Shown: positions 13,754 through 61,182 of the stretch, in pieces
Layout: every line of letters starts with the position of its first letter
Position numbering within the stretch: position 1 is the first letter of the stretch
Translations under genes and position numbers: made by a program
From: Pseudomonadota bacterium
GTDB lineage: Bacteria; Pseudomonadota; Alphaproteobacteria; Rhodospirillales; Magnetospirillaceae
Assembly (NCBI GenBank): GCA_021793155.1
Contig: JAJYTF010000016.1
Coordinates: 1-64,000 of the forward strand
Direction of reading: 5' to 3'
DNA: 64,000 bases
Notes under the pieces: model-generated
Database searches by the model: none
What the model was told of the DNA's origin: nothing
What the model saw: the letters and a program-made list of their open reading frames with translations, nothing else

Positions 13754-13960
13754 AGTGGTCCGCGCCAGACGCTTGGTTCCCGGGCGTCTGGATCAGGCGG
13801 CCCACCAACTAACTGAATTGTGGTGAGAATCTGACGCGGCTTGCGACCGGCGGTCGTTGGGGCCGCGGCCAAGCGCGCGGAGGCGCGCGCCCGGCGAGGG
13901 CAAATCCAAGAGCCGAAGGCCAAGGATCCCCTTGGATCCACCCCAGGATTGGGAAGTAGA
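13754..13960. repeat. Structured intergenic repeat, copy A1, plus GC-rich module
   Basis: 13754-13826 is one of three full copies of a dispersed element (others at 26214 and 42131). It has a 12-bp hairpin CCAGACGCTTGG/CCGGGCGTCTGG (13765-13791, paired throughout if G-U is allowed), then GGATCAGGCGGCCCACC and the module ending GAATTGTGGTG. Unlike the other copies the left edge is TAGAGTGG, not CTAG. Downstream a GC-rich stretch contains CCCGGCGAGGGCAAA, shared with the giant palindrome at 55060-55074. The region separates the convergent unknown gene and phasin gene. Confidence 0.7.
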
Positions 13961-25476: not shown

Positions 25477-26217
25477 ATGGCTCGGAATTTCTGGGGCGAA
25501 ATCAAACAGTTCAGCGCGGCGGTAGCCCTGGTCCTGGTCTCGCGGACGGTGGTCGCTCAGCCGTTCTATGTTCCTTCCGGTTCGATGGAGCCGACGCTGC
25601 AAATCGGCGACGAATTGCTGGCCAGCAAGTTCGCCTACGGCTACAGCCGTTACTCTCTGCCCTTCGCCCCCGGCCATTCGACACCCGAGCGGCTGCTCGG
25701 CCGTCTGCCCGAACGCGGCGACGTGGTGGTGTTCCGCCTGCCCCGCGACGACGAGGAAGTCTATGTGAAGCGGGTGATCGGCCTTCCCGGTGACCGCGTC
25801 CAGATGCGTGGCGGGCGCCTGTGGATCAACGATGCTCCTCTGCCGATCCGCGCCGACGGCGTCGGCCAGGTTGAGCTGCAGAACGGCCAGACGGCGCCGG
25901 CCGGCCGTTTCATCGAGACCCTGCCCGGCGGCCGCCAACACGCCATCTTCAAGCTGACCGAAGCCGGCCCGCTGGACGATACACCTGTCTACGAGGTGCC
26001 GAAGGGGCATCTGTTCATGATGGGCGACAACCGCGACAACTCGCTGGACAGCCGGGTCTCCGCCGCCAAGGGTGGAGTCGGTTTCGTGCCGGTGGAAAAC
26101 CTGATCGGTCGGGCTGACGTGATTCTCGGCTCTTGGGACTTCCTCGTCACCGGCCATCCGGTTTCGGCTTGGCTGTCGGGAATCCGGCTGTCCAGATTCT
26201 TCTCCCGCATTGCCTAG
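25477..26217 (+). CDS. lepB: Signal peptidase I
   Basis: A 246-residue inner-membrane serine peptidase that removes Sec and Tat signal peptides. The N-terminal membrane anchor is followed by SGSMEPTLQIGDELLASKF with the catalytic Ser36; the catalytic Lys is in VYVKRVIGLPGDRV and GHLFMMGDNRDNSLDSR is the conserved box E. Start ATG 25477. The TAG stop (26215-26217) lies inside the CTAGTGG left edge of an intergenic element, so the last codon context was set by that element. Confidence 0.94.
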   Translation: MARNFWGEIKQFSAAVALVLVSRTVVAQPFYVPSGSMEPTLQIGDELLASKFAYGYSRYSLPFAPGHSTPERLLGRLPERGDVVVFRLPRDDEEVYVKRVIGLPGDRVQMRGGRLWINDAPLPIRADGVGQVELQNGQTAPAGRFIETLPGGRQHAIFKLTEAGPLDDTPVYEVPKGHLFMMGDNRDNSLDSRVSAAKGGVGFVPVENLIGRADVILGSWDFLVTGHPVSAWLSGIRLSRFFSRIA

Positions 26218-26406
26218 TGGCCCCCCCCCAGACGCTTGGTTCCCGAGCGCCTGGATCAGGCGGCCCACCGACTAATTGAATTGTGGTGCGAAGCGGGCGA
26301 TTCTGCGCGTCAGGATTGAGCAATTTCTATAGATATTAAATTACGCGAATATGTTGCCGGCGGGCAGTGAAGGCCTGCGCAGGCTCTGTCGGAGTCGGAC
26401 CACTAG
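26214..26406. repeat. Structured intergenic element, copy A2, bounded by CTAG
   Basis: Left edge CTAGTGGCCC (26214) and right edge GGACCACTAG (26406) are inverted copies with one mismatch. Inside are the shared hairpin CCAGACGCTTGG/CCGAGCGCCTGG (one A-C mismatch), GGATCAGGCGGCCCACC and the module ending GAATTGTGGTG (to about 26288). A unique 110-bp AT-richer stretch follows. The left CTAG contains the lepB stop codon. The form fits a nonautonomous insertion with a TA or CTAG target duplication. Confidence 0.75.
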
Positions 26407-40621: not shown

Positions 40622-42052
40622 TCAGTCCTCGGCGTAGGGATTGCGCCGTTTCCTCAGACCGAACCGAATGGGAACGCCCTCCAGCCCGAAGGTCTCCCGC
40701 AGCCCATTGACCAGATAGCGGGTGTAGGATTCGGGAAGTTCATCTGCCCGCTGGGTGAACAGGGCGAATGTGGGCGGGCGGGTCCGCACCTGGGTCATGT
40801 AGCGGAGCCGCAGCCGGCGCCCGCCCTGGATCGCCGGCGGGGGGTGCCGCTCGGTCATTTCCGCGAGCCAGCGGTTCAGTTGGGCGGTGGGGACGCGCCG
40901 GTTCCACAGGTCGTAGATGCCGACCACCGCGTCCATCAGACGGTCCAGACCCTTCCCGGCCAACGCCGACAGCGTCACCGTCGGCACGCCGCGGACCTGC
41001 GGCAGCGAGGTCTCCAGCCGGTCCTGCAAGCGGCGGACCGCCTCGGCCCGGTTGTCCACCGCATCCCATTTGTTCACGGCGATGACCAGGGCACGGCCCT
41101 CATCGATCACCAGCCGGGCGATGGTCAGGTCCTGTTTGTCCAGGATGGCGTTGGCATCCAGCACCAGCACCACCACATTGGCCATGCGGATAGCCTCGAT
41201 GGTGTTCGAGGTGGACAGGCGCTCGACCGAATCGCTGACATTGGCGCGCCGGCGCAGCCCAGCGGTGTCGACGAGACGGATGGTGCGGCCGCCGTATTGC
41301 CATTCCACGGTGATGGCATCCCGGGTCAGGCCGGCCTCGGGGCCGGTAAGCATCCGCTCTTCGCCGAGCAGGCGGTTGACCAACGTCGATTTGCCGACAT
41401 TCGGCCGGCCCACCACGGCCATTCGCAGCGGCCGGGCAGCCTCGGCCTGTTCGGCCGCGGCGTTGACATCGCCGTCCTCGTCGACCTCATCGTCGCCGGC
41501 GTCCGCCGCCTCATGCCAGGCAGAGGAGAGTTCGTCTTCGGCCATCACGCCCCCGTGTTTTCGGGCATGCGGCAGCAGGGCTTCGTAAAGGTCGTCGAGG
41601 CCTTCGCCGTGCTCAGCCGAGAATGCTACCGGCTCCCCCAGACCAAGCGCAAAGGATTCATAGAGCCCCGGCGCTCCAGCCTTGCCTTCGCATTTGTTGG
41701 CCACCAGGATGACGGGCCGCTTGCTGCGCCGCAGATAGTCGGCGAAGAAGGAATCGAGCGGGGTGACGCCGGCACGCGCGTCGATGAGGAACAGAACCAG
41801 GTCGGCATCGGCGATCGCCCGGTCGGTCTGACTGCGCATGCGGCCTTCGACCGAGTTGTCGAAGGCATCCTCGAGCCCCGCCGTATCGATCACGGTGAAG
41901 CGCAGGTCGGCGATTCCGCCATCGCCTTCGCGACGGTCGCGGGTCACCCCCGGCTTGTCGTGGACGATCGCCAGACGGCGTCCCACCAGCCGGTTGAACA
42001 GGGTCGACTTGCCCACATTGGGGCGGCCGATGATGGCGATCTTGAAGGACAT
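40622..42052 (-). CDS. der: Double GTPase Der (EngA)
   Basis: A 476-residue ribosome assembly GTPase for the 50S subunit. Two G domains are present, each with GRPNVGKST (residues 9-17 and about 203-211), DTAGL-type G3 motifs and NKCE/NKWD G4 motifs, followed by a KH-like C-terminal domain. The acidic linker ([18 protein letters not shown]) is typical of alphaproteobacteria. ATG 42052 ([12 protein letters not shown]) is chosen; ATG 42064 is possible. Confidence 0.95.
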
Positions 42053-42130
42053 GCTACTTACCAATTCGCCATGGTCGCCCCTCGGGACTTGGCCCAGGGG
42101 CGGCCAAGGCGGCGAAGGATCAAACGGCCT

Positions 42131-42253
42131 CTAGTGGTCCGCCCCAGACGCTTGGTCCCCAAGCGCCTGGATCAGGCGGCCCACCAACCAATTGAATTGT
42201 GGTGAAAATTCGACGGCTGGTGGCGGTACCATCCGTCGGATTTTCACCACTAG
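42131..42253. repeat. Structured intergenic element, copy A3, bounded by CTAG
   Basis: 123 bp with CTAGTGGT at the left and ACCACTAG at the right. The shared hairpin CCAGACGCTTGG-TCC-CCAAGCGCCTGG is at 42145-42171, followed by GGATCAGGCGGCCCACC and the GAATTGTGGTG module. The right part is a second inverted repeat, GTGGTGAAAATTCGACGG (42199-42216) against CCGTCGGATTTTCACCAC (42233-42250), one mismatch in 18. The right CTAG supplies the TAG stop of bamB (minus strand). The whole element separates der from bamB. Confidence 0.8.
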
Positions 42254-43581
42254 CGATACGCCAGGAGCTTTGCGTCACGGGTAACGAGAATCAGCGTGCC
42301 ATCGGCCACGATGGGCGGAATGCTGACGCCGCCAGGCAATTCCTCTTCGCCGATCTTCGCCCCGGTATAAGGCGAGAACGATACGGCTTTGCCGGCCGAC
42401 GACGTGAGAATCAGGCGGTCGGACGCCAGAATCGGGCCGCTCCAGATGATGCGTCCCTCCTTGTCCTTCTCGTCTTCCCATGTCGGCAGCGAGGTTACCC
42501 AATGCACTTTGCCCGAGGTGGCGTCGAAACAAACCAAGTCCGGCGCGTTGGTGATCAGATACATGTAATCGCCGGCAACCCACGGCGTCTGAATCGACCC
42601 GACGTCCCGGTCCCAGATACGGCGCCCGGTACGCAGGTCGATGGCGGCAACGATGTCGGCGTTGCCCGCCGCATAGACCCTGCCGTGGTCGACCACCGGC
42701 AGACCGCGGATATCGGTCAGTTCGGCAACCTGGTCGGTGCGGCGGATGCTCGAGACCATTTCGCTCCATTGCACCGTGCCGTTCTCGATACGCAACGCGA
42801 ACAGTTCGCCCGAGGTGTAAGGAGCCAGGACTGTATTGCCCTCCACCGCGGGGCTGGTGCCCCCCACCATCATGGCCATCTCGCTCATGCCGTTGTGGTG
42901 CCACAGTTCATGGCCGTCATCGGCCGACAGGGCCTTGGTCTCGTTGTCCACCGTGATGAGTAGCACGCGTCCGGCATGGACGGTCGGCGCGCCCGGCGCG
43001 GGCGCCGACAGGTTATGGCGCCACAGTATCTTCCCCTGCGCCGGATCCAGGGCGACTGCCTGGGCGAATCCCGTGGTGGCGAACAGCTTTCCGTCGTCGT
43101 AGGCGAGGCCGCCTCCGAAGCTTCCATCGCCCACGTCGTCGGGCGTCAGGTCGACACGCCACAGGCGCTCACCATCGCTAAGCCGATAGGCCGAGACTGT
43201 CGAAGCGGCGTCCATGGCGAAGACCTTGCCGTCGGCCACCACCGGCTGGCTGAAATAGGGGCGGCGCTTGTCGCCGCCGGTTCCCAGATCCGCACTCCAA
43301 ACCATGTGCAAGGACGACCCGGCCAGCAGCACGCGGTGGAGGTCGTGCGTCGGCACTCCGCCGGCCTGCGGCCAACTGGCGATCTTCTCCGGATCGGGCA
43401 AAATGATGGGTGAACCGGCTCCGGTATCAGCTTCCAGAGCCTTGGAATGGGCTAGCACGCTGATGCGCTTCCCGGGCAGCGGCGGCGGCGGGCTGTCGGC
43501 AAAAATACTGCTATCGCATGCGGCTAGAAGCCCGCAAGCGGCGGCGATAACGGCCAAACGGCGCATGGGGGCGGTCCTCAT
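42250..43581 (-). CDS. bamB: Outer membrane assembly lipoprotein BamB-like, PQQ-type propeller
   Basis: A 443-residue lipoprotein with lipobox LAAC (Cys22). The mature part is an eight-bladed propeller with repeated blade motifs such as GKVFAMDAASTVSAYRLSDG, YDDGKLFATTGFAQAVALDP and GRVYAAGNADIVAAIDLRTG. BamB supports the BAM complex in outer membrane protein insertion. It is coupled to the upstream TPR membrane protein (TGATG) and followed by der, as in many proteobacteria. Its stop codon lies in the end of a mobile-looking element. Confidence 0.9.
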   Translation of the reverse strand: MRTAPMRRLAVIAAACGLLAACDSSIFADSPPPPLPGKRISVLAHSKALEADTGAGSPIILPDPEKIASWPQAGGVPTHDLHRVLLAGSSLHMVWSADLGTGGDKRRPYFSQPVVADGKVFAMDAASTVSAYRLSDGERLWRVDLTPDDVGDGSFGGGLAYDDGKLFATTGFAQAVALDPAQGKILWRHNLSAPAPGAPTVHAGRVLLITVDNETKALSADDGHELWHHNGMSEMAMMVGGTSPAVEGNTVLAPYTSGELFALRIENGTVQWSEMVSSIRRTDQVAELTDIRGLPVVDHGRVYAAGNADIVAAIDLRTGRRIWDRDVGSIQTPWVAGDYMYLITNAPDLVCFDATSGKVHWVTSLPTWEDEKDKEGRIIWSGPILASDRLILTSSAGKAVSFSPYTGAKIGEEELPGGVSIPPIVADGTLILVTRDAKLLAYR

Positions 43582-54370: not shown

Positions 54371-54609
54371 GCCCAGACTCCACTGCCACGAGATCCTCCG
54401 GGAAAATCGACGCCGGCCTTCGAACCTGCACTGAAATAGGCGTCGACAGGGTCGTTGTCGCCGGCGCTATTGCCTAGGATCGCCGTTTTGACCATCGGAG
54501 GTAGAAGTTCCTAGTCAGCCGAACAAGGGCAGCACTGTTGCACCATGGCAGACGTAAGGATACCTTGGAAGACTACGCTTCCGGCCGTCATGGACGAAGG
54601 ACCCAGGTC

Positions 54610-54897
54610 ATGGGCAAAGTCATATTACTCTGCGCAATTGTCGGTCTGCTGGCAGGCTGTGCCGAGAAACGGCCACCGATACAATCTGGGGACAATTTCG
54701 TCTTTCTCGCCAGTGACAGCATCTTCGGCCCCAGCACCGCGGATGCCGACGTAGCGGCGCGGTCCTATTGCGCCGCCCGAGGCAAGTTCGCGCAACTCGA
54801 ATCGCGCGAACGGCCGCCTGAGATGCGGGACGACATTTTCCCCGAATATGCCGTGATGACCTACCGCTGCCTGGCATCCTCCGCGGCCGGGCCCTAG
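54610..54897 (+). CDS. Small predicted lipoprotein
   Basis: A 95-residue lipoprotein with signal MGKVILLCAIVGLLAGC, lipobox LAGC (Cys17). Mature part acidic with two Cys. ATG 54610 is chosen as the start of the signal; the frame reaches 54538 without a ribosome binding site. The TAG stop (54895-54897) is inside the CTAG left edge of the giant palindromic element. Function unknown. Confidence 0.72.
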   Translation: MGKVILLCAIVGLLAGCAEKRPPIQSGDNFVFLASDSIFGPSTADADVAARSYCAARGKFAQLESRERPPEMRDDIFPEYAVMTYRCLASSAAGP

Positions 54898-55102
54898 TGC
54901 CGTGACTCAATCAAAGGGCTCACGGCACCAGGTTTCCCATAGCCCCTCGCCGGGCGGGGCCATCCGGCCCCTTGGCCGCGCCCTCAACGGGCGCTGGAAC
55001 AAGGAAACCGGCCAACCAGCCGCCATTGAGGCGGCGGCCAAAGGGGCCGGATGGCCCCGCCCGGCGAGGGACAAAAACCAACTGATCGAATTGTGGTGAC
55101 CC
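54894..55102. repeat. Giant palindromic element, copy A4, CTAG at the left edge
   Basis: Starts CTAGTGCCGTGA, with the hairpin GTGCCGTGA/TCACGGCAC (54897-54928). Then comes a very long inverted repeat: CCTCGCCGGGCG... at 54945-54979 pairs with ...CGCCCGGCGAGG at 55034-55069, 35 bp with a single bulged base, extended outward by one G-C and inward by CCTCAA/TTGAGG. The right end carries the module CCAACTGATCGAATTGTGG shared with the A1-A3 copies. The left CTAG holds the stop codon of the lipoprotein. The HPt gene starts three bases after the end. Confidence 0.8.
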
Positions 55103-58845: not shown

Positions 58846-58864
58846 GCCGCCCGTCCACGGCGGC
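58846..58864 (-). terminator. Hairpin between the cobalamin riboswitch and cobT
   Basis: On the minus strand GCCGCC and GGCGGC form a 6-bp stem with a 7-base loop, with GGCC then TTGGACTTTT after it. It lies directly after the riboswitch and about 30 bases before the cobT ATG, so it is a candidate expression platform, as a terminator or by masking the ribosome binding site. Confidence 0.5.
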
Positions 58865-58879
58865 GCCACAACAAAGTCC

Positions 58880-59062
58880 CGGCCGGTCTTCTGGCTTAGG
58901 ATCAATCCCTCCGAACCCCTTCCCGGCCTTCGCCAGTGGGTGTGCGCCCGGAGAGTCCCCATTCACAGCGTTGGGCACGCGGCGGCTTCTCACCGCCTTC
59001 CCGATTGTCCCGCCGAAAACGGCAGGCACCGGAACTTAGCCTGTTTTTGCCAGAACCCGTCG
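58880..59062 (-). ncRNA. Cobalamin riboswitch controlling cobT
   Basis: On the minus strand the consensus blocks appear in order: GTTCCGGTGCC, AATCGGGAA, GGCGGTGAGAAGCCGCC, the GCTGTGAATGGGGA core, CCACTGGCGAAGGCCGGGAAGG, and the B12 box AGCCAGAAGACCGGCC (58882-58897). It lies between the minus-strand promoter region near 59070 and cobT. Binding of adenosylcobalamin would be expected to reduce cobT expression. The 5' boundary is approximate. Confidence 0.93.
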
Positions 59063-59143: not shown

Positions 59144-59149
59144 CAGGGC

Positions 59150-61182
<2,033 letters not shown>

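Follow-up and report, generated by a model that had tools for sequence, protein, structure and literature searches.

The window analyzed here is a 64,000-nucleotide stretch of the genome of a member of the Magnetospirillaceae (G000; 4.93 Mb, 66 contigs). A complete copy of a short two-hairpin element lies in the window between bamB and der. Degenerate copies of the element and a member of a sister family occur elsewhere in the window. The genes and features that are relevant to the present study are as follows.

13754-13836, plus strand: truncated, degenerate copy that runs from hairpin 1 through the spacer into the first part of hairpin 2 and has no CTAG bounds
25477-26217, plus strand: lepB (signal peptidase I), whose TAG stop (26215-26217) is part of the CTAG at the left junction of the relic copy
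26214-26406, plus strand: older, apparently chimeric copy in CTAG, with the left half of the element and a right end (CGGACCACTAG) like the IS630 right end
40622-42064, minus strand: der (engA), the next gene downstream of bamB
42131-42253, plus strand: complete copy and its site, consisting of C, a TA duplicate (42132-42133), the element (42134-42250), a TA duplicate (42251-42252) and G
42134-42184, plus strand: hairpin 1, the outer left arm of which is the left terminus and resembles the right end of the resident IS630
42185-42198, plus strand: 14-nt spacer joining the hairpins, with a conserved TTGAATT at its end
42199-42250, plus strand: hairpin 2, the outer right arm of which is the right terminus and resembles the left end of the resident IS630
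42250-43581, minus strand: bamB, with its TAG stop (42252-42250) within the right junction CTAG of the complete copy
54894-54931, plus strand: 38-bp palindromic element of the sister family, with ends CTAGTGCCGTGA...TCACGGCACCAG and a CTAG that contains the stop of ORF 54538-54897
55077-55099, plus strand: fragment of the main element (spacer region, GAATTGTGG module), separate from 54894-54931

Structure of the element

The segment 42131-42253 has the layout C-TA-GTGGTCC...CACCAC-TA-G, in which a 117-bp element is enclosed by its insertion site. The body of the element consists of two hairpins that are arranged back to back, with fold stability z-scores of -9.0 and -8.3 for the two strands. 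The outer ends (GTGGT...ACCAC) constitute terminal inverted repeats, and longer inverted repeats are found within each half. The element exhibits features by which a bacterial MITE is recognized, namely, a length of 117 bp (less than approximately 300 bp), multiple copies, terminal inverted repeats, the absence of a transposase gene, and a target-site duplication with empty sites. Judged by its sequence, the segment is a copy of a non-autonomous IS630-type MITE.

An Rfam search of the window returned no family above the gathering score over 42131-42253, ruling out a riboswitch or another Rfam RNA at this position. The only Rfam families detected were a cobalamin riboswitch (58864-59048, minus strand) and a TPP riboswitch (59146-59270, plus strand), which stand back to back with approximately 100 nt between them. 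Across genera, internal conservation is highest in the stretch 42185-42202, which comprises the spacer plus the first bases of hairpin 2 and contains an invariant TTGAATTGTG. On the minus strand, this stretch matches 8 of the 9 specified bases of the IHF consensus, which could be chance; the match is too weak for an IHF-like site to be claimed in the spacer.

Copies in the genome and in relatives

A search of the genome and its relatives showed that the copies are not unique to the window. The 123-mer of 42131-42253 recurs identically in at least 40 places of G000, and a degenerate core pattern gave 74 matches, most of them near-identical, versus 0 for a reversed-pattern control. Therefore, the recurrence of the element is not due to chance. 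Sixty-nine distinct core copies were read in G000, and the MITE has spread to about 70 sites in this bacterium by insertion into CTAG. All of the copies for which both flanks were obtained (53 of 53) have the form C-TA-element-TA-G, which defines the element as 117 bp in length and shows that its target, the TA of CTAG, becomes duplicated; farther out, the flanks have no common sequence. Two tandem pairs of copies share one CTAG (contigs C19 and C11), as expected if one copy enters the junction CTAG of another. Contigs C5, C8, C11, C19, C26, C59 and C63 end in a copy or within a few bases of one, indicating that the element breaks the assembly.

Within the family, 27 of 55 genomes gave matches to the MITE. 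When 297 genomes sampled from the order were searched, the 27 positive ones all belonged to this one family, and none was found outside it. No plasmid-borne copies were found in a search at distant sensitivity. The relative G006 (MAG BP5.bin88; loci identical) carries its own copies, which are approximately 90% identical.

Comparison of the orthologous bamB and lepB ends showed that the element is absent from both in G006. The BamB protein of G006 is 84% identical to that of the window, and its gene ends in TATCGG-TAG directly followed by the der leader, versus TATCGC-TAG followed by the element in the window. The bamB-der gap was free of the element in all 29 relatives checked (G006 and 28 others). 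At the lepB site of G006, the right flank (AGCCATTATCGC...) is continuous and is preceded by a diverged stretch.

Degenerate copies and hairpin pairing

The preliminary description of this DNA had pointed to sequences at 13754, 26214, 42131 and 54894, which are present as claimed, and had correctly recognized CTAG on both sides of 26214-26406 and 42131-42253. The CTAGs at 26214, 42250 and 54894 do contain the TAG stops of lepB, bamB and a small lipoprotein-like ORF (54538-54897), respectively. However, its count of three full copies has to be reduced to one, the copy at 42131-42253. The copy at 13754 lacks the right half as well as the left CTAG (AATAGAGTGG), and 26214-26406 looks like a chimera or a relic. 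The supposed fourth copy at 54894 is a different element of 38 bp, although the main family is represented nearby by the fragment at 55077-55099. The 38-bp element belongs to a sister family of CTAG-bounded, near-perfect palindromes of 38-48 bp (CTAGTGCCCTGA...TCAGGGCACTAG), which are also located at C10:63973 and C55:47815 of G000 and whose ends resemble another IS630 subgroup (CTAGTGCACTGACTCATTCAG).

The hairpin arms had also been described as differing between copies while remaining paired. This view holds across diverged copies of other genera but only in part within the window, where copies 2 and 3 contain an A-C mismatch in a hairpin arm on the plus strand. In a pairing alignment of sixteen diverged copies from several genera, pairing is kept in 96% of cells. 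Changes on both sides occurred in 21 of the 43 pairs, a number that none of 500 shuffles reached, and slid controls gave 2-3 such pairs. Does this conservation reflect selection for RNA structure, as had been suggested? Pairing is indeed conserved, but almost all of the changes lead from one Watson-Crick pair to another with few G-U intermediates, and conservation as a DNA palindrome, including template-switch correction, would therefore explain the paired changes as well as RNA selection does.

A resident IS630 as a candidate partner

A search for an insertion sequence with matching ends identified a resident IS630 on contig C12, one end of which resembles each end of the MITE. G000 has one intact IS630-family transposase gene, whose product contains PF13358 (DDE_3) and scores 260.7 bits against NCBIfam NF033545 (cut-off 100), in line with IS630-family membership. 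The resident IS630, which is ISAr1-like, spans L065:307-1464 between CTAG sites and has the ends GTGGTAAAAATC... and GTGGTCCGA.... Of 22 bases compared, 18 agree between the left end of the IS and the right end of the MITE and 16 between the right end of the IS and the left end of the MITE; the background mean is approximately 6 in both cases. CTAG flanks both ends of the resident IS and its relatives, as in insertion into the TA of CTAG with duplication of the TA. On alphaproteobacterial plasmids, relatives of the transposase are at most 71% identical, including ISAr1-family records (67%).

The transposase gene ends with CAC-TA-G at the edge of the element (L065:1456-1464), and 19 of the 21 plasmid loci (L383-L403) are organized likewise. 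Thus, the TAG stop of the transposase is not part of the element but is composed of the duplicated TA and the G of the target. In three loci of annotated plasmids, the terminal CTAG of the autonomous IS630 is also the stop of a neighboring gene, namely, arsR (L387), a MucR gene (L400) and a hypothetical gene (L398). Such copies amount to 3 of approximately 20 insertions, a count that comes without a denominator of CTAG stops.

An enzyme of the IS630 type is very probably responsible for moving the MITE. The candidate partner is a single-copy element with ends that are similar but not identical to those of the MITE. A homolog of the C12 transposase is absent from the MITE-rich relatives G006 and G050, and the present mobilizer may therefore be another IS630 or a lost one. 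In the relatives, MITE copy number was not found to correlate with the C12 transposase. An IS630 on contig C39 was rejected as a partner; a CTAGTGG end was not found, and its transposase match is split into two stretches.

The repeated, structured and mostly intergenic nature of the element and its two inverted units could also be read as those of a REP/REPIN-type palindrome or a structured noncoding RNA family, rather than of a transposon derivative bounded by terminal inverted repeats. This reading is contradicted by the precise TA duplication, the CTAG target and the empty sites, and the lack of an Rfam match, the IS630-like ends and the presence of both orientations relative to genes also argue against it, which makes it extremely improbable. 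The nonautonomous mobile element inserting at CTAG or TA that the preliminary description had envisaged is substantiated by the uniform TA duplications, the empty sites, the family-wide copies and the resident IS630.

Occupancy of stop codons

Pre-insertion sites were restored in silico by deleting the element together with one TA. A simple gene caller assigned 28 of the 53 insertions to a TAG stop, 22 to positions between genes and 3 to the inside of genes, versus 4, 33 and 20, respectively, for the other CTAGs of the same regions (p = 1e-7). Occupancy was determined in 2.0 Mb of G000 contigs that contain 566 CTAG sites. The MITE occupies 24% of the CTAGs at stops (19 of 78), 4.6% of those between genes (11 of 239) and 0.8% of those inside genes (2 of 249). 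The difference between stop and intergenic sites (p = 2e-6) is also significant at stricter gene scores, and a test that uses open-frame length only, without a gene caller, gave odds ratios between 2.6 and 4.9. Of 12 insertions in other species, 5 are found at stops, compared with 0 of 12 control CTAGs. This analysis is not circular because the right junction reads TA-G in every copy and the target already held the TAG. Stop codons had been regarded as tolerated targets, a claim that is supported but understates their strong over-representation.

The genes that end at the element are real and intact up to their C-termini. The hosts include hemB (porphobilinogen synthase), tpiA (triose-phosphate isomerase), ispH, bamB and, for the relic copy, lepB, as well as the genes for PhnE, SoxZ and a lauroyl acyltransferase. 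The position of the element directly behind the stops of housekeeping genes, the high stability of its hairpins on both strands and their conserved pairing raise the idea that the host has co-opted it as a transcription terminator or mRNA 3' stabilizer and keeps it at stops for its usefulness. However, its orientation relative to the gene shows no significant bias (11 to 8), and a T-run after the hairpins is absent. Furthermore, the near-identical copies indicate a recent spread that left little time for selective retention, and the nearly exclusive Watson-Crick changes are those of DNA palindromes. We thus regard co-option as improbable.

What accounts for the bias toward stop codons? Coupled stops, which are followed by a co-directional gene within 20 nt, are occupied in 0 of 17 cases versus 19 of 62 for the other stops (p = 0.008). 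These empty coupled stops and the near absence of copies inside genes make selection visible. The same 19 of 62 stops compare with 5 of 96 among the CTAGs that follow a stop at a distance of 11-200 nt (p = 2e-5), an excess that is not obviously explained by simple purifying selection. A less clear difference was obtained between stops (10 of 27) and CTAGs between convergent genes (3 of 27; p = 0.054). Selection alone may not account for the whole bias, and targeting is possible.

The latter two comparisons would fit a transposition machinery that itself favors stop codons or the very 3' ends of genes, be it through local DNA topology, through the termination of transcription or translation, or through an extended target, with a smaller role for selection. 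However, an extended sequence preference around CTAG is not clear, the avoidance of coupled stops points to selection, and we know of no mechanism that senses stop codons in DNA. A preference of the machinery as the main cause is, in our judgment, unlikely. The bias most likely results mainly from selection that removes harmful insertions elsewhere, to which target choice possibly makes an additional contribution.

Discussion

We propose with high confidence that the element is a two-hairpin MITE that derives from an IS630-family element and is mobilized by its transposase in trans, targets the TA of CTAG and uses stop codons as safe landing sites. The MITE would originate from an IS630-family (ISAr1-like) transposon and would be mobilized in trans by its transposase. 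It would enter the TA of CTAG with duplication of the TA; both the site and the duplication are read directly from the copies, and the role of the transposase and its catalytic steps are presumed by analogy with the IS630/Tc1 mechanism. Because the element starts with G and ends with C, CTAG is recreated at both junctions, and a gene that ends in the TAG of CTAG therefore retains its stop and encodes an unchanged protein. CTAG stops thereby serve as safe landing sites and are occupied far more often than other CTAGs; hardly any copies lie within genes or between genes that are tightly coupled.

Elements of this kind are already known, and the likeness drawn here concerns size, TA duplication and fold as given in published descriptions. 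RUP of pneumococcus, which is paired with IS630-Spn1, is approximately 107 bp in length, is present in more than 100 copies, duplicates TA, adopts a stable fold and has ends like those of the resident IS630 (PMC2229807, PMC3049150). RUP is AT-rich, unrelated in sequence and harbored by a Firmicute, and we found no report of a stop-codon bias for it in these papers. MITEPlu5 from Photorhabdus is described as 123 bp long with the TA target and its duplicate included; it exists in hundreds of copies and has a strong hairpin and ends like those of IS630-type elements (ISPlu). Its terminal sequences differ from those of our MITE, and the description consulted mentions neither a CTAG target nor stop codons (PMC6267812). 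Correia/NEMIS elements of Neisseria form two size classes of approximately 107-155 bp with TA at the ends and long inverted repeats (PMC2229807); as described, they are set apart by a single palindromic layout with 24-bp terminal inverted repeats and an unrelated sequence. MITEPsy1 of Pseudomonas syringae is a 100-nt MITE that inserts after CTAG or YTAA and has been shown to move (PMC3189936), but it generates a 4-nt duplication and is tentatively of the IS5 type (ISPsy2-like ends). Insertion of the Shigella IS630 into the TA of 5'-CTAG-3' is stated in the title of Tenzen and Ohtsubo (1991), as cited in PMC2170065. IS630/ISAr1-like elements are autonomous and approximately 1.15 kb in length, whereas the MITE has no transposase and contains an internal two-hairpin body; the resident transposase is 67-71% identical to its plasmid-borne ISAr1-type relatives.

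A literature search, from which subscription journals were mostly out of reach, found no stop-codon bias described for such an element. Thus, the measured stop-codon niche appears to be new, and the kind of element (RUP, Correia and MITEPlu5) and the CTAG preference of IS630 are not.

More tentatively, there may be an IS630/ISAr1-type lineage that treats stop codons as a safe harbor, steering insertions to stops or retaining them there beyond the loss of harmful ones; we consider this extension possible but doubtful. If it is true, CTAG targeting and the G...C ends would rebuild TAG on both sides and spare host genes, and the transposase would obtain its stop codon from outside the element. 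The present MITE provides a quantified case in which a mobile element occupies approximately one quarter of the examined CTAG stops and leaves the proteins unaltered for a simple molecular reason. Such a target specificity lets a parasite multiply cheaply in a gene-dense genome and places new 3' hairpins behind housekeeping genes.
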